Of a stretch of 64,000 nt of DNA, positions 45,698 through 53,726 are shown one piece after another (within the stretch, counting starts at the first letter, position 1; each line of letters opens with the position of its first letter). Source of the stretch: an uncultured Gemmatimonadota bacterium (GTDB lineage: Bacteria > Gemmatimonadota > Gemmatimonadetes > Gemmatimonadales > Gemmatimonadaceae); the NCBI GenBank assembly GCA_903882745.1, contig CAIRYG010000011.1, positions 124,001 through 188,000 on the forward strand. Direction: 5' to 3'. The position numbers and the translations under genes are program-made. The notes beneath the pieces were generated by a model. It was not told the DNA's origin. It saw nothing but the letters and a program-made list of their open reading frames with translations, and ran no database searches.

Positions 45698-47407
45698 CTA
45701 CTTACAGAGGCCCTTGACTGCTTGGTCGGCGGCCGGCGAGTACTGCGCCAGGTTACCGAGCAACTGCTTGATGACTTCGGCGTTGGTCGCGCCACCCGCC
45801 GGCAGATTGATCTGCGCGCTGGTGAAGGCATCCTGCGCGGCCTTCGCATCGGAGCACTGCTTGCTCTTGGTCAGGTCGCCGTAGTGAATCGTGCCGAGGA
45901 AGAAGTACGCCACACCGGAGACGAACTTGCCGCTGTTCTTCATCGCCTTGTCGGTGAGCGTGCTGTCGGCGTAGGCCACCCACGTCAGCACCTTCTCAAA
46001 GTCCGCGATGGTCTTCGGATCTGCCTTCTGGGCGGCGGAGAGCAACTTGCTCGAGGCACTCACCGCGAACTGCCCCACGGTGCCGGCATCCTCGCCGGCC
46101 TTGATGGCGTCATGCATCGCCGTGAACAGCGTGTCCCACTGTCCTGCATCGTGGTACGACTTCAGGATGATGAGGCGAGCGCCCGGCGTCTTCGGGTTGA
46201 TCTCGAGCGCGCGGCGGAGCGAGGTGATCGCCTGCGCCGTCTGCCCACCCTTCAACTCGAACTGACCGCGCTTGGCCCAGAAATCATCACGCTTCGGGAA
46301 CTTTGCGGTTGCCTTGGACGCCGTCGACGCGGCCTTCGCCGTGTTGCTGTCGGACGAGTACGCCGAGATCATGCGGTCGAAGTAATCGGCATCGGCGAGC
46401 GACGTATCCATCTGCACCATCTCTTCGCCGACCTTGACGAACTTCTTCAGGTCGTCGGTGGCGCCCAAAATCAGCCAGTACAGCTTGGCAAGGCCGGCGT
46501 CGCCCGGGTTCTCGGCGACCGACTTCTCGATCATCGGCTTGGCCAGGTCAAACTTCTTGGCCGCGGCCAGCTCGTTCACGACGGTCAGCTGCAGGCGGCT
46601 GTTGCTCGGATCGGCCTGATAGAGCTTCATCAGGGCGTCGATCTTCTTGTCGGTCTGTCCGGCGGCTTCGTACTGATTGACCGCTTCGGCAAGCGCAGGC
46701 TTGCTCTTGGGGTCGAGCTTGAGGATGTCTTCGACAACCGGAAGAATCTCAGTGGCCGGCTTCTTCTGGGTGGTCAGCGCCTGCATCTGGCAGAAGCGAA
46801 TCCAGGTGCTGCCCGGAAAGCTCTTCACGCCCTCGGCGACTTCCTTGGAAACTTCGGTCCACTTGGACTCACGCACGGCCAGACGGCAACGCTTCTCGCC
46901 ATCGAACACGCTATGCGCCTTCTGGTACGCCTTGGAGACCTGCGCGGCGACGTTGTCGAGCTTCGGGCCCGAGAAGCTGCCGAGCGGCTGCACGAGCGAC
47001 GCATCGCGCGCGAGCACGACGTTTGCCTCAATCGTGAAGCCCGTGGCCGTCTTCAGCACGCTGCCCTCGATGTACTCATCGGCGCGCAGCATCTTCGCGA
47101 GCTGCACGGCATCCGACGGCGAGAGCGCCTCGGTCACCGAGTACCCCGACTGCTCGAGGTTGTTGTTGATGTCGTTCTTGGGGAACACGTACAGTTCGCG
47201 CACCGACACGTCGCCAGCGATCCGATCGCGGAGTGATTCCGCGGCATCGGGTCCGAGCTTCTTGTCGTCGCTCTTCAGCGTCCCGATCATCAATCGGGGT
47301 GCATTGGGATTCGCGCCGCGCGAGTACTGCGCGCCAGCCGTGGACGCCATTCCTGCAAAAAGCGCCGTCGCAATCGCCGCGAACGCGCGAGCCTGATGCC
47401 GAGCCAT
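45698..47407 (-). CDS. Secreted tetratricopeptide-repeat protein
   Basis: Protein of 570 aa with a signal peptide (AFAAIATALFAGMASTAGAQ, cleavage near residue 28). Residues 35-150 contain APRLMIGTLKSDDKKLG and VSVRELYVFPKNDINNNLEQSGY, resembling a domain that senses or counts, but I do not recognise it. From about 190 to the end it is TPR-like helices (ADPSNSRLQLTVVNELAAAK, QAITSLRRALEINPKTPGAR). ATG 47407 has GGAGGA about 9 nt upstream, the best ribosome-binding site seen here. A terminator follows. Periplasmic scaffold is the safest description. Confidence 0.8.
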   Translation of the reverse strand: MARHQARAFAAIATALFAGMASTAGAQYSRGANPNAPRLMIGTLKSDDKKLGPDAAESLRDRIAGDVSVRELYVFPKNDINNNLEQSGYSVTEALSPSDAVQLAKMLRADEYIEGSVLKTATGFTIEANVVLARDASLVQPLGSFSGPKLDNVAAQVSKAYQKAHSVFDGEKRCRLAVRESKWTEVSKEVAEGVKSFPGSTWIRFCQMQALTTQKKPATEILPVVEDILKLDPKSKPALAEAVNQYEAAGQTDKKIDALMKLYQADPSNSRLQLTVVNELAAAKKFDLAKPMIEKSVAENPGDAGLAKLYWLILGATDDLKKFVKVGEEMVQMDTSLADADYFDRMISAYSSDSNTAKAASTASKATAKFPKRDDFWAKRGQFELKGGQTAQAITSLRRALEINPKTPGARLIILKSYHDAGQWDTLFTAMHDAIKAGEDAGTVGQFAVSASSKLLSAAQKADPKTIADFEKVLTWVAYADSTLTDKAMKNSGKFVSGVAYFFLGTIHYGDLTKSKQCSDAKAAQDAFTSAQINLPAGGATNAEVIKQLLGNLAQYSPAADQAVKGLCK

Positions 47408-47503: not shown

Positions 47504-47577
47504 TGGGCGAAGAGGGATTCGAACCCCCGACACCCTGCGTGTAAGGCAGGTGCTCTAACCAGCTGAGCTATTCGCCC
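47504..47577 (-). tRNA. tRNA-Val (anticodon TAC)
   Basis: A complete cloverleaf (74 nt). The acceptor GGGCGAA pairs with TTCGCCC, plus discriminator A; the D arm is GCTCAGCTGGTTAGAGC. Anticodon stem CCTGC/GCAGG holds loop CTTACAC with anticodon TAC, reading GUA/GUG valine codons. The T arm is GTCGGGGGTTCGAATCCC-like. CCA is not encoded. The 5' end lies 6 nt after the stop of the 56-aa gene, so both are probably on one transcript. Confidence 0.97.
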
Positions 47578-47583
47578 TGAAAG

Positions 47584-47754
47584 CTACGAGAGAATCGCCA
47601 CCGGCACGAGCACCGCATACCCGACGACCAGAAAGATAGGGGCCAACGTCATCCCACCGCGTGCAAGGTCGGCATATCCAATGGCCAAAACCGCAGCCGC
47701 GACCCCCCACTTCAAGGCGGACTTGCCGCCCCCTACTCGCCCGTGTTCGGTCAT
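47584..47754 (-). CDS. Small two-helix membrane protein, unknown
   Basis: A 56-codon frame starting MTEHGRVGGGKSALKW and ending VLVPVAILS. Two hydrophobic segments (WGVAAAVLAIGYADLA and PIFLVVGYAVLVPVAIL) are separated by ARGGMTLA, giving a helical hairpin. A near-consensus promoter lies just upstream, placing the predicted transcript start about 3 nt before the ATG, and there is no ribosome-binding site. It could be a leaderless small gene or a chance frame in a tRNA leader; the membrane-like composition favours a gene. I do not recognise the family. Confidence 0.6.
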   Translation of the reverse strand: MTEHGRVGGGKSALKWGVAAAVLAIGYADLARGGMTLAPIFLVVGYAVLVPVAILS

Positions 47755-47830: not shown

Positions 47831-48955
47831 TCATTCATTCTGTTTCCTTCCCGACGCGTCCTGAGGCCTGTCCCGAGGCGCGTCCTCCCCACCATCCGCG
47901 GGGCTTCCCCCCGTCCCCGGCAGCTCGGCCAGCAACTCGGCCAGCAGGCTCTCCTGCTCCTGCCGCGCCTGCTCCTGCTCCCGACGCTCCTGCTCCGCAT
48001 CCGCACGCCGCAATCGCTCCATCCGCTCCCGATCCCGCACCCGGCGCTGCCACCAGAGCGGCCCCAGGAGCAACAACAGAACAACTGACCCCAGCGTGGC
48101 ATCGGTCAGCATGGCGAGCGCCCCATAGCGCACCCGCGTCCGCGATCGCCACCGCGCTTCCAGCGCCTCTGATGTTTCCCCGTACGCCCGACGTAATCCT
48201 CGGTCGAACGAGCCGGTCTCCTTCCAATACCCGAAAAATAGCGACAAACCCCGCTCGGGGTCGCCTCGGGCGATTTCCTCGACCGCCCGAACCGACAGCG
48301 CATAGGCCGCGTGCGCTCTTCCCTCTCCATCTACGAACAACTCGTCCAACTCGCTCAGACGGGGGAGGCCTCGAAGCGCCAACGCCAAATTGACGGTAAG
48401 AATCCCGTCCCCCTGCTCCTCCCCGGCCACCAGTGTCGCGTACCCCTCGTCGAACCACCGTGGCGGGAGGTCCCCGAGCAGCTCATGGAGGGCGAGATGG
48501 GCCAATTCGTGCCGCAACACGCGCACAGGGTCCCCTGCCGTGGACGGGGCCAACCGCCCCTGCATGACAATCCGTCCAAGCCCCGGATATGCCAGCGCGG
48601 CCCCCCATTCCGGGGCGCCGGTACCGTTCCAGCTCCGGAACGTCCGAGTATCCGGCGCCAGAAATATCTGCACCCGTTGGCGTGGCCGCGGCAGCCCGGG
48701 AAACGAATCCTGCGCCACGGCGGCCATCAGGAGCGACTCGGCGAGCGTTGCATCGCCCGGCGTCGCGACCACCGAGACGCGGCCGCGCTCGCGAACCTCG
48801 TACCCGGTGAGGCTCGCCGGGCCCTGCGCAGCCGCCACCGACGGGGCGACCGTTCCCAACAGGCCGGCCCAGAGCACACCGACGGCAACCACCCGGGCGA
48901 TCAGGCGCGTACGGGCTCCCCGCCGTCGGCGACCACCTGCAACAGCTCGGCGCAC
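47831..48955 (-). CDS. Membrane-anchored gluzincin metallopeptidase (peptidase MA-like)
   Basis: Predicted zinc protease (about 374 aa). A basic N-terminus and hydrophobic segment (VVAVGVLWAGLLGTVAPSVAAAQ) send the middle domain across the membrane. RHELAHLALHELLG is the HExxH zinc motif and WFDEGYATLVAGEE about 20 residues later supplies the third ligand, as in peptidase MA-like gluzincins. A second membrane helix (LGSVVLLLLLGPLWW) precedes a charged, Glu/Gln/Arg-rich coiled-coil tail, probably cytoplasmic. GTG 48955 is chosen for its GGGG upstream and basic signal; it overlaps the TPR gene by 55 nt. GTG 48892 is the alternative. The substrate is unknown. Confidence 0.78.
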   Translation of the reverse strand: MRRAVAGGRRRRGARTRLIARVVAVGVLWAGLLGTVAPSVAAAQGPASLTGYEVRERGRVSVVATPGDATLAESLLMAAVAQDSFPGLPRPRQRVQIFLAPDTRTFRSWNGTGAPEWGAALAYPGLGRIVMQGRLAPSTAGDPVRVLRHELAHLALHELLGDLPPRWFDEGYATLVAGEEQGDGILTVNLALALRGLPRLSELDELFVDGEGRAHAAYALSVRAVEEIARGDPERGLSLFFGYWKETGSFDRGLRRAYGETSEALEARWRSRTRVRYGALAMLTDATLGSVVLLLLLGPLWWQRRVRDRERMERLRRADAEQERREQEQARQEQESLLAELLAELPGTGGSPADGGEDAPRDRPQDASGRKQNE

Positions 48956-49764
48956 CGCGTGCCCCACGGATTGAATTTGTTGGTCGTGAACCCGCGCGAC
49001 CACGCCTCCGTGGCCTGCTCGCGCTGCGCATTCAGCCAGTAGGCCCAGCCGAGTTGGTAGTAGGCCTCAATCAGATTGGGCCCGAGGAGCAGCGAACGCA
49101 GGAAAAAAGTCTCCGCCTCCGCAAACTGCGCGCACTCCAAGTAGACCAACCCGATATAAAAATGCGCGTACAACGACGCTTTCTTATCGCTGTCGAGCCG
49201 GATCACCGTGGACAGATGCTCCATCGCCTCGGCGAACGCGCGGCGCTTGAGACAGATGTAGCCGACATTCACGCGCGCCAGCGCATTCTCCGGCTCCCGC
49301 GTCAACACCCGCTCGAAGTGCGCCAAGGCCGGCTCGAATTTCTCCTGCAGCATTTGCGCCCATCCGAGCAAGGACTCGCTCGTTGGATCATCGGGCGCGA
49401 GTTCCAACGCACGGAGCAACGACGCTTCGGCTGCCTCGAAATCCCCGAGCGACAGTTGACTCCATCCCTTCTCTGCAAAGGTCGATGCGCCAAGGTGATC
49501 GGCCTGAGTCACCGGCTGTGCCACACTGAACCGCGGCGCATGCGACGTCGTCGCGGCCACCTGTTGTGCCTTCCACTTCTCGACGAGCCGCCTGATGTCG
49601 CTCTTGAGCAGCGTACGCTCCGCGAGTTCCTGCTCGACCTGGCGGAAGAGCTGTGCGATCTCCAGCTTGACGGCCGGCCGCTCGCCCTCGCTCAGCCCGG
49701 CATCGAGCCGCTGTTCGAGAGCACTGCAGCGGGCCTGAAGCGCCGAAAGGGGTTCGTCAGCCAT
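48901..49764 (-). CDS. Cytoplasmic TPR protein
   Basis: Soluble protein (287 aa) without signal or membrane segment. The first 70 residues are a coiled coil (ALQARCSALEQRLDAGLSEG, TLLKSDIRRLVEKWKAQQ). Then come about five tetratricopeptide repeats: FAEKGWSQLSLGDFEAAEAS, LAHFERVLTREPENALARVN, AYYQLGWAYWLNAQREQATE. ATG 49764 overlaps the stop of the DUF4388-TPR gene by 8 nt. It sits between that gene and the membrane protease and probably acts as an adaptor for one of them. Confidence 0.8.
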   Translation of the reverse strand: MADEPLSALQARCSALEQRLDAGLSEGERPAVKLEIAQLFRQVEQELAERTLLKSDIRRLVEKWKAQQVAATTSHAPRFSVAQPVTQADHLGASTFAEKGWSQLSLGDFEAAEASLLRALELAPDDPTSESLLGWAQMLQEKFEPALAHFERVLTREPENALARVNVGYICLKRRAFAEAMEHLSTVIRLDSDKKASLYAHFYIGLVYLECAQFAEAETFFLRSLLLGPNLIEAYYQLGWAYWLNAQREQATEAWSRGFTTNKFNPWGTRCAELLQVVADGGEPVRA

Positions 49765-51385
49765 GGGTGGGATTGTTGGACAGCGCCGCGAGATGCGCAG
49801 TCGTCGATGGATTTCCGGGATCGAGCATCAGGGTACGTTCCCAGCAGCGCTGGGCATCGGCGAGCTGATGCCGCGCGGCGGCAATCTCGCCCAGTTTGAT
49901 CCAGACATCGGGACCGAGCGTCTCATCGATCGTCACGGCGCGCTGGTAGGCGCGATGCGCGTCGTCGAGTGCCCCGAGGCGAAACTGCTCATCCCCGATA
50001 TTCTTGGAGAGCTGCGCGATTCCCGGATCGATTTTGGCGCCGGCGCTGGCCTGCGCTAAGGCGTCGGCATACGCGCCCGTGCGCTCGAGCGCGACGGACA
50101 GATTGTTGTGGAGCCGAGCCGCACGCGGGTGCGCCGCCACGCCTTCGCGTAACGTCGAGACCGCCGCCGATGCGCGCCCCGCAAGCGCAGCGACGAGCCC
50201 CGCGTAGTGAAACCACACGGCGGGGACGGTGCCCTGCCCATAGGCCAGTCGAGCCTCCTCACAATGCGTCGACGCGGCGGCCAGATCTCCCTCACGGAGC
50301 GCGATGACCCCGAAGGACAACAGCAGACGCGAATCGCCCGCGCCCCCAAGCGCGGCGGCCTCGACCAACGCCTCGCGCGCCTGCGCGAGCTGCCCCAACC
50401 GCTCGTACGCAAGCGCGAGGTGATGGAACACCTGCCACGCGACAGGGCGCGTGCGAGAGGCTTCCTCGAAGTGCGCAGCAGCCGCGGTCCAACGACCGGC
50501 CCGGAGCTGCAGCAAGCCCAAGTAGCTGCGGGCACGCGGATCGCGCGGGCGCTGGTCGAGCACGCGACGGAACTCCTCTTCCGCGTCGCCATACATCCCC
50601 GCACGGTACAGCGCGGCCCCAAGCGCGACCTGCTCCTCCGCGAGCGAATCCACGACGCGCACGACACTTTCGAGACGCTTTGGCACCGCCGTGAGATAGC
50701 CAGCCATCGCGAGCCCATACAGCGCCTTCCCAACCTCGAACTCGCCAATCCCGCACTCCTCGGCGAGCGCCGAAACGTCGCGACGCCCGTCGATGATTGG
50801 CAGCAGCCGTTCCTGCTCGCGGGAGAGCTCCGGCGACATCAACTCAACCTTGCGGTGATCCAGCTGAAACACGACACCGAATGATGGGATTTTCTTCTCA
50901 ATCAACGACCATTCGTCCACGCGACGTGCGCCCTCGAGGAGCATCGACTCTGCGTGCATTGCCACCAGGAACGCTTGCTCCTGCGGCATGACGTCCGGCT
51001 CGAAATTGAAGGTGCCGGTGGTCCAGCTGAAGAGAAAGAACACGATCTGCTCAATCTGCCCGCGCACGGCGCTCTCGAGATCCTCCGCGGAAATCGCGCC
51101 CATCGCCACCAGCACTTCGCCCAACTTTTGGCCACGACGTGCGCCCTGCGCGTCGAGTGCCCGTTGCAGTTCCTCGGCGCTGATAACCCCACTCCGCACG
51201 AGGACGTCCCCTAGTCGGTCGCGGCGATTCGCGAGCGCGGCATAGGAGATCCGTCCGTGATCAAAGTAGATCGCACCCACGTTTTCGCGATCCGTAACCG
51301 ACAAGCAGCCGGTTTTCTGTCCCATCGCGAGGAGCTGGAGTACGTCGGCCAAGCTTGCTTCGCGCAAACTACCTTTGATCGCCAT
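49757..51385 (-). CDS. DUF4388 (PATAN)-TPR protein
   Basis: Protein of 542 aa, cytoplasmic. Residues 1-170 are a DUF4388/PATAN-type domain: MAIKGSLREASLADVLQLL, KTGCLSVTDRENVGAIYFDH and the later FLFSWTTGTFNFEPD are its hallmarks. Within it, RLGDVLVRSGVISAEELQRA and KLGEVLVAMGAISAEDLESA are two copies of the T2SS GspE/PilB N-terminal motif. Residues 250-540 are about eight TPRs (VALGAALYRAGMYGDAEEEF onward). PATAN domains occur in regulators of motility and polarity in other phyla; that role here is inference. ATG 51385 overlaps the ATPase stop by 1 nt (TAATG). Confidence 0.85.
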   Translation of the reverse strand: MAIKGSLREASLADVLQLLAMGQKTGCLSVTDRENVGAIYFDHGRISYAALANRRDRLGDVLVRSGVISAEELQRALDAQGARRGQKLGEVLVAMGAISAEDLESAVRGQIEQIVFFLFSWTTGTFNFEPDVMPQEQAFLVAMHAESMLLEGARRVDEWSLIEKKIPSFGVVFQLDHRKVELMSPELSREQERLLPIIDGRRDVSALAEECGIGEFEVGKALYGLAMAGYLTAVPKRLESVVRVVDSLAEEQVALGAALYRAGMYGDAEEEFRRVLDQRPRDPRARSYLGLLQLRAGRWTAAAAHFEEASRTRPVAWQVFHHLALAYERLGQLAQAREALVEAAALGGAGDSRLLLSFGVIALREGDLAAASTHCEEARLAYGQGTVPAVWFHYAGLVAALAGRASAAVSTLREGVAAHPRAARLHNNLSVALERTGAYADALAQASAGAKIDPGIAQLSKNIGDEQFRLGALDDAHRAYQRAVTIDETLGPDVWIKLGEIAAARHQLADAQRCWERTLMLDPGNPSTTAHLAALSNNPTHG

Positions 51386-52182
51386 TAGTCGAGATCCTCG
51401 ACGAGACGCGCCGACATCTCCGGCCAGTCCCACACGATCTTCTCGGGGTCGGCAAACACGAGCAAGTCCTCGAACCCTTCGCTCGCACGCTCCAGATGCT
51501 CGGTGCGTCGCGTCGGCTCCACCATCACTTGGAAACGCTGCGAAGTGACCAAGCGTCGCACGTAGCCAAAGAGTTGACGCACGTCGGTGATCGCGAAGCG
51601 CGCAATCTCGTCCATGGCCGCGTCAGTCAGCGTGGCGCCGTACTCGATCGCCGCGGCGCGCACGAGCGCGGCGCGCAATTGGAGATCCGGTGGGTCCATG
51701 GCCACCTCCACGCCCGCCGCGAGCCGACTCAGGACGGAGGCCCCAAGCCCCGTGAGCTGCTGGACCGGTCGATCCGCGGTGAGCACAATCTGCGATAACT
51801 CCCCCGCGTCGAGCACGCGCGCGAGCAGCCGATTCGCGGCAGACTTGCCCTCAATGAGCGACAGGTCGTCGAGCGTGATCAAGAACGCACGCTGGGCCTG
51901 CTGCAGCAGATCGGCACGCCCCGCGGGAGACGCCGCGATGGCCTCGAGCGTGAGCGGATCGAGCACCAGATGCGGGCGCCCGGGAAAGCGCCCCGCCACG
52001 AAGTGACGGAGCGCCCGCAGGAGATGCGTCTTCCCTGTTCCGATGCTGCCGGTGATGACCAACGGGCTATCGGATCGCCCCACATGCTCCGCGACCGAGG
52101 TGACCGCCAGCACGGCAGCGCGGTTGCCCGCGCCGACGACAAAGGTCTCGAAGCGAAGACGCTCCTCAGCCTTCGACGGCAT
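51385..52182 (-). CDS. DnaA/Hda-like AAA+ ATPase lacking a DNA-binding domain
   Basis: P-loop ATPase (265 aa). LRFETFVVGAGNRAAVLAV resembles the DnaA domain III entry (FxxFVxGxxN). Walker A is GSIGTGKTHLLRAL (residues 45-58), Walker B FLITLDDLSLI, and sensor/box VII appears as GASVLSRLAAGVEVAM; DVRQLFGYVRRLV matches the DnaA lid helix (E/DxRxLxG). The DnaA domain IV signature is absent; instead comes an unrelated tail with VFADPEKIVWDWPEM. It is therefore not an initiator; Hda-like regulation or a loader for the adjacent DUF4388/TPR proteins is possible. ATG 52182 overlaps rluD by 17 nt. Confidence 0.8.
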   Translation of the reverse strand: MPSKAEERLRFETFVVGAGNRAAVLAVTSVAEHVGRSDSPLVITGSIGTGKTHLLRALRHFVAGRFPGRPHLVLDPLTLEAIAASPAGRADLLQQAQRAFLITLDDLSLIEGKSAANRLLARVLDAGELSQIVLTADRPVQQLTGLGASVLSRLAAGVEVAMDPPDLQLRAALVRAAAIEYGATLTDAAMDEIARFAITDVRQLFGYVRRLVTSQRFQVMVEPTRRTEHLERASEGFEDLLVFADPEKIVWDWPEMSARLVEDLD

Positions 52183-53146
52183 AGAAGCCAAGGAAATCGA
52201 GCGGATCGACCACCGTCTCCAGCTCCGGCATCCCACTCACCGCAACCAGCGAGGTCCGAAGATCCATCGGCAGCACCGATCGGAAGTCGAGCAACTCGCC
52301 GCTCACCGGATGCTTGAGTACCAACCACGCCGCATGCAGAAAGTGACGCTTTGGCGGAAGCGCAACAATACGGCGCGCCCCACCACCGCCGTAGGTGTCA
52401 TCACCAACCACCGGATGCCCCACCGACGCGAGATGCACGCGAATCTGATGCGTGCGCCCCGTGTGCAGATGCGCACGCAAGAGCTCCACCGAGTCAAAGC
52501 GCGCGAGTTTCACAAAATCGGTCTTCGCCGGACGCCCGTTCACCAGCACCGCCATCTTCTTCCGGTCGTTCGGGTCGCGGCCAATGGCTTTGTCGACCGT
52601 GAGCGCCGGCGCATCGATGTGTCCCCACGACAGCACGGCATAGCGCCGCGAGACCCGACGCTCCGCCATCGCCTTGCTCAACACGCGATGCGCCACCTCG
52701 GACTTGGCCACCACAATCAGCCCAGAGGTGTCCTTGTCGAGGCGATGCACGAGTCCCGCACGATCCTCATCGCCCGAATCAGCCAACGCCTGCCCACGCC
52801 CCTTGAGCGCGTTCACCAGCGTGCCGCTCCAATGACCGGGCGCGGGGTGCACCACCATGCCGGCCGCCTTGTCGACGACCATCATGTGATCGTCTTCGTA
52901 GACGACGTTGATCTCGATGTCTTCGGCCAGCACCGGATGCGCCGCCGGCTCCGGCGACGTCACCGAAATGGCGCTCCCCGCCTCGGCGCGGAACGAGGCT
53001 TTTTCCGCCGCGCCATTGACCGTCACCGCACCGTTGGCAATCAGGGTCGCACTCAAGGTGCGGGACATATCGAGACGGCGTGCCACGAGCACATCCAGTC
53101 GCTCGTCGTCCCCGTCCTCAACTGTGAATCGCTGCGTCCGTTCCAT
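52166..53146 (-). CDS. rluD: 23S rRNA pseudouridine synthase, RluD family
   Basis: Pseudouridine synthase (326 aa). An S4 domain (RLDVLVARRLDMSRTLSATLI) precedes the catalytic domain, where the nucleophilic aspartate lies in AGLVHRLDKDTSGLIVVAK; LHTGRTHQIRVHLAS and HPVVGDDTYGGG are the other signatures. The S4-HRLDKDTSG arrangement fits RluD, which modifies helix 69 of 23S rRNA. ATG 53146 has GAGGGAG about 5 nt upstream and is preferred to TTG 53161. It overlaps lspA by 29 nt and the ATPase gene by 17 nt. Confidence 0.94.
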   Translation of the reverse strand: MERTQRFTVEDGDDERLDVLVARRLDMSRTLSATLIANGAVTVNGAAEKASFRAEAGSAISVTSPEPAAHPVLAEDIEINVVYEDDHMMVVDKAAGMVVHPAPGHWSGTLVNALKGRGQALADSGDEDRAGLVHRLDKDTSGLIVVAKSEVAHRVLSKAMAERRVSRRYAVLSWGHIDAPALTVDKAIGRDPNDRKKMAVLVNGRPAKTDFVKLARFDSVELLRAHLHTGRTHQIRVHLASVGHPVVGDDTYGGGGARRIVALPPKRHFLHAAWLVLKHPVSGELLDFRSVLPMDLRTSLVAVSGMPELETVVDPLDFLGFYAVEG

Positions 53147-53726
53147 GGGCTCCCTCGGCAATTGCCTCGAGCGCTGCTGGCGCCGGGAGGTCAGCCGCCG
53201 ACGAGGGCACAGACTGCGCCGCTTCGCTCCGGTCCCGCATATCTTCTTGCCACAACACGATCGCCAGCAACACTGCCCCGCAGGTCACGGCAATATCCGC
53301 CACGTTGAACGTGGGCCACCGTGCACTACCAATCCCGACGTCGATAAAATCGACGACGCCACGGGACGACTTCAGTCGGTCCAGCAAATTCCCGACGGCA
53401 CCACCACAGACAAGCGCCACCGCAACCGTCCGCAGCCAATCGCCCGCACGAGACGCGCGATGCAGCTGCCAGAGCACGACGAGCGCGATGACCGTGAGCA
53501 CCATAAAAATCCCACGCGACCACGGCCCAAGATGCAGGCCAAAGGCCGCGCCCGGATTGTACACCAGCGTCAACCGCAATGTCTCGCCGATCACCCGGCG
53601 CGGCAGATATACGGGCGACAGGGCGTCAACAGCCACAACCTTCGTGAACGCGTCGGTGAGCACCACCACCGCCCCGATCGTCCAGAACGCTCGGCCTTGC
53701 GCCTCCGTCGGCTCACTTCTTTGCAT
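53118..53726 (-). CDS. lspA: Lipoprotein signal peptidase
   Basis: Inner-membrane aspartic signal peptidase II (202 aa) that cleaves prolipoproteins ahead of the lipid-modified cysteine. Four helices are visible; AVGNLLDRLKSSRGVVDFID and PTFNVADIAVTCGAV hold the catalytic aspartate pair, and LVYNPGAAFGLHLG is also conserved. A C-terminal Ala/Ser-rich extension of about 35 residues is beyond the usual 160-170. ATG 53726 overlaps the DksA-like gene by 14 nt. A substrate is the VGAC lipoprotein at 12.7-14.0 kb. Confidence 0.95.
   Translation of the reverse strand: MQRSEPTEAQGRAFWTIGAVVVLTDAFTKVVAVDALSPVYLPRRVIGETLRLTLVYNPGAAFGLHLGPWSRGIFMVLTVIALVVLWQLHRASRAGDWLRTVAVALVCGGAVGNLLDRLKSSRGVVDFIDVGIGSARWPTFNVADIAVTCGAVLLAIVLWQEDMRDRSEAAQSVPSSAADLPAPAALEAIAEGAHGTDAAIHS

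Follow-up and report, generated by a model that had tools for sequence, protein, structure and literature searches.

A DnaA-type ATPase and its PATAN partner in what is probably a trimmed chemosensory and MglBA locus of a Gemmatimonadota bacterium

The 64,000-nucleotide stretch of DNA analysed here (the window), from an uncultured Gemmatimonadota bacterium, holds a cluster of four minus-strand genes, all of them intact open reading frames. They encode a DnaA-type AAA+ ATPase, a DUF4388 protein, a TPR protein and a membrane-anchored peptidase. Only the first two form a pair that is obligate and translationally coupled. The ATPase has changed in evolution together with its neighbour, the DUF4388 protein, whose PATAN domain contains an MshE-type cyclic di-GMP (c-di-GMP) motif, MshEN, and this points to an undescribed ATP-driven switch. 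Almost certainly, a chemosensory and MglBA polarity locus found across the phylum has here been cut down to these four genes. A first-pass annotation of the window had found no pathway to which they could be assigned; we would now place them in such a locus, in reduced form. The locus thereby becomes more interesting than a four-gene curiosity, for another reason: it would be a trimmed chemosensory/MglBA locus with a new ATPase–hub pair. What is new is the pairing of a DnaA-type ATPase with a PATAN–MshEN hub, control of polarity by MglA and PATAN proteins being already known. Taken as a single statement, the evolutionary context and the mechanism proposed below hang evenly in the balance.

The ATPase–DUF4388 pair

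Our survey set was 121 genomes of the phylum, from which 20 regions were fetched, then 13 more. Besides DnaA, the ATPase query finds an extra ATPase, usually of two domains, present in 70 of the 121. A full-length DUF4388 protein is encoded in 69 of these carriers, all but the fragmented assembly G090, and in none of the 51 non-carriers; the genomes are related, so the p-value of a Fisher test on this pairing is nominal only. In 28 of 34 ATPase loci the ATPase gene stops 0–1 nt from where the DUF4388 gene starts, a coupling beyond chance; the other six have gaps of 1–45 nt. In the window the two genes overlap by 1 nt (TAATG at 51385), the DUF4388 start falling within the ATPase stop codon.

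Genera g3, g5 and g13 have no ATPase and keep a shorter DUF4388 protein. Aligned with the full-length form, the protein of the ATPase-less clade is without exactly residues 55–107, the 53 residues of MshEN, and PATAN is intact on both sides. (Match coordinates had suggested loss of the whole N-terminal half, a reading we rejected since only the MshEN insert is missing.) Where the ATPase gene would be expected, a mini-protein of 60–94 aa directly precedes the DUF4388 gene, with 0–1 nt overlap, in all 19 readable genomes of the clade. Both AAA+ domains are gone from it, and two pieces of the ATPase are kept: the linker helix motif (EFxxFLxDI...) and the C-terminal tail (...WPxxxxRxIEELR). A paralogous 383-aa PATAN protein retains its own MshEN insert in two genomes of the clade (G010, G061), so the loss from the DUF4388 protein is specific. 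The window genome, in which AAA domain 1 and MshEN are both retained, fits the same rule. Other components come and go as well. In the ATPase-less clade, MglA is lost and Che kept in G023 and G021, the reverse in G047 and G112. Since Che, MglA and AAA+/MshEN are lost piecemeal and the helix-and-tail peptide is kept, the PATAN–TPR protein behaves like a hub whose plug-ins can be removed.

The DUF4388 protein scores 118.5 bits against PF14332 (cut-off 25) and is a member of the PATAN family. The first-pass annotation had described two GspE/PilB N-terminal-like motifs together with TPRs. Family scans agree and type the motif as the MshE-type c-di-GMP motif (NCBIfam NF053729, 58.0 bits against a cut-off of 38, residues 58–109). 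In the crystal structure, MshEN is 53 residues long, with two 24-residue motifs bearing Arg, Gly, Leu and Gln and a 5-residue spacer (PMC5013675). In our alignment, motif 1 conserves Arg in 21 of 21 sequences and Gln in 19 of 21; motif 2 has Arg/Lys in 18 and Gln in 19. The window protein has a perfect motif 1, and a motif 2 in which Lys replaces Arg and two hydrophobic positions hold Ala/Val. From its motif, the insert is likely to bind c-di-GMP.

The ATPase, too, is much as first described, a DnaA/Hda-fold protein with intact Walker motifs and no DNA-binding domain. It scores 76 bits against Bac_DnaA (PF00308, cut-off 23) and has box-VII Arg153 and sensor-2 Arg202; beyond the AAA+ region, the family scan found no match to the helix-turn-helix of DnaA domain IV. 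The ATPase of relatives is usually 590–850 residues long, with two DnaA-type domains (Pfam Bac_DnaA twice). In 19 of 20 loci the window protein is closer to tandem domain 1 than to domain 2 (scores of 238–323 versus 38–217), the exception being L043 (263 versus 272). In the alignment, its domain 1 runs straight into the C-terminal tail of the tandem proteins. This match, and the direct run into the tail, indicate that linker and domain 2 were deleted and that the window cluster is a reduced one. The second domain has met another fate in families f4 and f5 (L037, L038, L040, L044, L050–L052). There its Walker A is lost or altered, domain 1 being intact, and in most it is a pseudo-ATPase. Single-sequence structure predictions had a mean pLDDT of 52 for the ATPase and 45 for the DUF4388 protein and were not used for fold searches.

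Could the protein be an Hda- or DnaA-type replication regulator that lies here by chance? It does have the AAA+ fold of the DnaA family, and the first-pass annotation had allowed that it might simply be Hda. Its score against the Hda model, TIGR03420, is 60.9 bits, far under the curated cut-off of 194.8, and against DnaA, TIGR00362, 119.3 bits (cut-off 343.9). Hda carries an N-terminal sliding-clamp motif, QLxLPL-like; the N-terminus here, MPSKAEERLRFETFVVG, lacks it. The true DnaA of the window genome is encoded elsewhere (C3:258022). Judged by curated cut-offs and missing domains, domain IV among them, the ATPase is neither Hda nor DnaA. The tandem AAA+ architecture of relatives, the lineage-specific loss down to a mini-protein and the strict pairing with a PATAN protein also speak against a replication regulator, an idea we find barely credible. 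An anti-phage defence reading gained no support either, a PADLOC scan giving only a weak AAA match (20 bits).

The locus and its fuller form in relatives

The features of the locus are collected in Table 1. Successive genes overlap: rluD ends inside the ATPase gene (17 nt, 52166–52182), the DUF4388 and TPR genes share 8 nt (49757–49764), and the TPR and peptidase genes share about 58 nt, a figure that depends on the GTG start chosen at 48958 (start inferred). With the 1 nt between the paired genes, this reproduces the overlaps given earlier (17, 1, 8 and about 55 nt). The 56-aa membrane protein had been overlooked. It occupies the same place in most loci examined (matches in 33), including loci without the ATPase–DUF4388 pair.

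Table 1. Features of the locus, in window positions
Feature	Positions	Strand	Basis or remark
rluD, pseudouridine synthase	52166..53161	-	PF00849 + S4; same place in relatives; fixed upstream neighbour
DnaA-type AAA+ ATPase, 265 aa, single-domain form (domain 1 + C-tail)	51385..52182	-	Family scans, alignment
Walker A GSIGTGKT, residues 45-52	52027..52050	-	Sequence, alignment
Walker B LITLDD, residues 101-106	51865..51882	-	Sequence, alignment
Linker helix motif remnant GFEDLL, residues 236-241 (EFxxFLxD in relatives)	51460..51477	-	Alignment
Conserved C-terminal tail EKIVWDWPEMSARLVEDLD, residues 247-265	51388..51444	-	Kept in tandem ATPases and mini-proteins
DUF4388 protein, 542 aa: PATAN with MshEN insert, winged-helix-like region, TPRs	49757..51385	-	Family scans
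MshEN insert inside PATAN, residues 55-107, 53 residues	51065..51223	-	RLGDVLVRSGVISAEELQRALDAQ + KLGEVLVAMGAISAEDLESAVRGQ; second motif reaches residue 110
TPR region of DUF4388 protein, about residues 250-537	49775..50638	-	Family scan
TPR protein, 287 aa	48901..49764	-	TPR matches; belongs to larger Che/Mgl cluster of relatives
Membrane-anchored HExxH peptidase (Peptidase MA-like), 375 aa	47831..48958	-	HELAH at 48497-48511; ancient neighbour, independent of ATPase–DUF4388 pair
Small membrane protein, 56 aa, between peptidase and tRNA-Val	47584..47754	-	Conserved neighbour
tRNA-Val	47504..47577	-	Downstream landmark of locus
TPR protein TPR611 (start inferred)	45698..47407	-	Fixed downstream neighbour, before rsmH

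The same place on the chromosome recurs in relatives, between ileS-dksA-lspA-rluD upstream and peptidase-tRNA-TPR611-rsmH-ftsI downstream. The fixed locus and a larger cluster within it occur in six families, and gene order, which the first-pass annotation had wanted scored beyond close relatives, is kept over families and orders of the phylum. In its fullest form (L034, L041, L163, L166) the cluster reads CheA - CheC/X - TPR (905 aa) - PATAN (383 aa) - TPR/roadblock - roadblock - MglB-like - MglA, followed by tandem ATPase - DUF4388/MshEN/TPR - CheR - CheD - CheB - CheW - TPR (287 aa) - peptidase, the roadblock and CheC/X domains being identified by Pfam. In most relatives the pair lies within a cluster of Che, Mgl and further TPR genes, and many have CheA, CheR, CheB and CheW there. 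At the other extreme, the order in family f5 is just rluD - ATPase - DUF4388 - peptidase.

By sequence, the GTPase of the cluster is a true MglA relative. Myxococcus xanthus MglA and its relatives score about 230–254 bits against it (the MglA query sequence is 100% identical to a Myxococcus record). The MglB-like protein (RB158) matches the gene directly before mglA in Myxococcota, Geobacter and Nitrospirota, the same order as here. The tandem ATPase was not seen in 25 MglA-bearing genomes of those three groups, nor was it found in 189 Myxococcota genomes, although that search, at a strict threshold and run without a positive control, counts for little. A literature search returned no paper on a DnaA-like protein with MglA or PATAN, or on an ATPase–DUF4388 pair, DUF4388 appearing only in an unrelated context. 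Two oddities of the Mgl genes deserve mention. In G016 (L191:1-3000), MglB-like and roadblock genes leave no room for MglA before the mini-protein and DUF4388 genes, so that MglB is kept without its GTPase. In genus g20 the cluster MglA is strongly diverged (no match listed for L047:7370-7981 of G012; 150 bits for L164:6739-7338 of G044, against about 300 elsewhere), which suggests a degenerate or retuned GTPase.

Much of the fuller cluster is gone from the window genome. CheR was found nowhere in it and no Che system is present in the cluster; the cluster mglA and mglB genes, found in the four loci with the fullest cluster, are absent. The only MglA-type GTPase that remains is a second one outside the cluster (G000:C11:419334-419780, in a frame of about 230 aa), and nearly all the genus and family members that were checked keep this second MglA, including those that have lost the entire locus. 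Five genus-mates (G027, G121, G123, G127 and G132) lack both CheR and the DUF4388 gene, and the locus of G027 reads simply rluD - peptidase - TPR611.

The first-pass annotation had proposed an assembly or polarity module ending in a protease. "Polarity" was well guessed, since the cluster of relatives includes both MglB-MglA and a Che system; a single four-gene module finds no such support. It is true that the four genes are contiguous and overlapping in the window, and that ATPase, DUF4388 and peptidase genes are contiguous in family f5 (L040, L044, L050–L052), as one ATP-driven assembly or polarity machine ending in a periplasmic protease would lead one to expect. The peptidase, however, occurs in 97 of the 121 genomes, many without the ATPase–DUF4388 pair, and it stays directly after rluD where the pair is absent (L184–L186, L188). 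Conversely, no peptidase match was found in the ATPase-bearing genomes G038 and G043 of family f3. We rejected the peptidase as an obligate member on its occurrence without the pair, and consider a four-gene machine highly improbable. The two proteins themselves are as the earlier annotation had them: TPRs were found in the one, and the other is an HExxH peptidase whose Pfam score narrowly misses the cut-off (Peptidase_MA_2, PF13485, 30.6 bits against 32.4, E 3.7e-7), with HELAH at residue 150 and the downstream Glu in DEG at 170. The TPR protein survives without the ATPase in L157, L189 and L190. The peptidase, and possibly the TPR protein, would thus be neighbours rather than parts of a switch.

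A possible switch and its target

How might the pair work? We propose that the PATAN–TPR protein is a hub whose target is a surface-motility machine, with the type IV pilus motor as the likeliest candidate. The ATPase would use its helix motif and its C-terminal WP tail to dock on this hub, and its AAA+ domain would work on, or be controlled by, the c-di-GMP-type MshEN insert, as the co-loss of these parts suggests. Nucleotide state and c-di-GMP would together set the hub, and in relatives MglA and the Che pathway might steer the same hub. This mechanism, drawn from sequence comparison, we hold somewhat below an even chance. In its broadest form, it would have a DnaA-family AAA+ protein recruited as a trans switch on MshEN in a PATAN–TPR hub that integrates ATP state, c-di-GMP, a Ras-like GTPase and Che, the catalytic domains and MshEN being a removable plug-in after whose loss a docking peptide of 60–94 aa remains; about that version we are more tentative still.

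The few models studied leave it unsettled how surface motility is wired to c-di-GMP, to MglA-type GTPases and to chemosensory pathways. Here, chemosensory, c-di-GMP and MglA-type components are joined in one operon with a new component, the tandem DnaA-type AAA+ ATPase. The natural deletion variants (the single-domain form of the window, the AAA-less mini-protein and the MshEN-less hub) are ready-made tests of which pieces interact. If the proposal is true, a close relative of DnaA has a non-replicative job.

Several observations pull the other way. The MshEN spacer of the DUF4388 protein is 6 residues, one longer than the 5 of MshE. The MshEN-less proteins form one clade in the tree (support 99/99), so the co-loss is one evolutionary event, suggestive rather than a statistical law. 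PilT is found in 43 of the 51 non-carriers as well as in 69 of the 70 carriers and so does not single out pili, and flagellin is somewhat enriched in carriers (29 of 70, against 8 of 51 non-carriers). The window ATPase, finally, is 37% identical to those of genus-mates, against 57–58% for the DUF4388 protein, and such unusual divergence could mean decay.

Decay is the essence of one rival explanation, that the four genes are a crumbling remnant of a Che/MglBA locus with no function left. The Che genes and the cluster MglA are gone, AAA domain 2 is deleted, the ATPase and DUF4388 genes have disappeared from other members of the genus, and in one of these the locus is seen emptied (L184). Against this, every reading frame is intact, all the AAA+ motifs and the MshEN residues are kept, as are the 1-nt and 8-nt overlaps, and the DUF4388 and TPR proteins are 57–62% identical to those of genus-mates. 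We regard a functionless relict as unlikely.

For a working locus, the question is what it controls. We favour type IV pili over flagella, at a level of belief just short of even, because of the PATAN literature, the distribution of PilT and the pilus genes of the phylum. Genes for PATAN proteins lie close to those for MglA/MglB (PMC4316618), and cyanobacterial PATAN regulators bind PilB1, the pilus motor (PMC7690835, PMC9090330). In M. xanthus, PATAN proteins were among the candidates considered alongside SgmX (PMC11580455), and genes for type IV pili have been reported from across the Gemmatimonadota (PMC10581226). Control of flagella or flagellar chemotaxis instead would suit the presence of Che genes in the relatives' cluster, the flagellin enrichment and the flagellins of the window genome itself. 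Yet 41 of the 70 carriers have no flagellin, whereas 69 of the 70 have PilT; the window genome has flagellins and no CheR; and in studied bacteria the links of PATAN and MglA are with pili and gliding. A flagellar target seems unlikely. The window genome is itself a curiosity here: its two flagellin genes (C11:582411-584520) imply flagella without the standard adaptation methyltransferase.

Comparison with known systems

The ATPases of the locus have the AAA+ core of DnaA and Hda, with Walker, sensor and arginine-finger residues in common. Domain 1 aligns best with DnaA, and domain 2 of relatives best with Hda. They differ in lacking domain IV, in scoring under the curated cut-offs, in their non-replicative context and, in relatives, in the tandem domains, the helical linker and a unique C-terminal WP tail.

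With MshE/PilB-type MshEN, the DUF4388 protein shares the two 24-residue c-di-GMP receptor motifs, and the lost insert is equally 53 residues. There, MshEN is fused to a GspE-type ATPase; here, it is inserted in PATAN, with the longer spacer, and would work with a separate DnaA-type AAA+ protein, as the co-loss suggests. The cyanobacterial PATAN-REC regulators PixE, PixG and LsiR likewise place PATAN in a chemosensory and pilus context, and are reported to bind the extension ATPase PilB1 (PMC7690835, PMC9090330). The DUF4388 protein, by contrast, has TPRs, an MshEN insert and no receiver domain, and its AAA+ partner is in the same operon.

A further parallel is with the MglA/MglB system of M. 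xanthus, which works with SgmX, FrzS and SopA on type IV pili. Relatives of the window genome likewise carry a clear MglA with an MglB-like roadblock protein directly before it, together with large TPR proteins and a Che system in the cluster, and PATAN has been linked to the network (PMC11580455, PMC4316618). No DnaA-type AAA+ protein has been described in the M. xanthus polarity system. Unlike M. xanthus, the relatives put everything in one locus, from which the window genome has lost the cluster MglA, MglB and Che.

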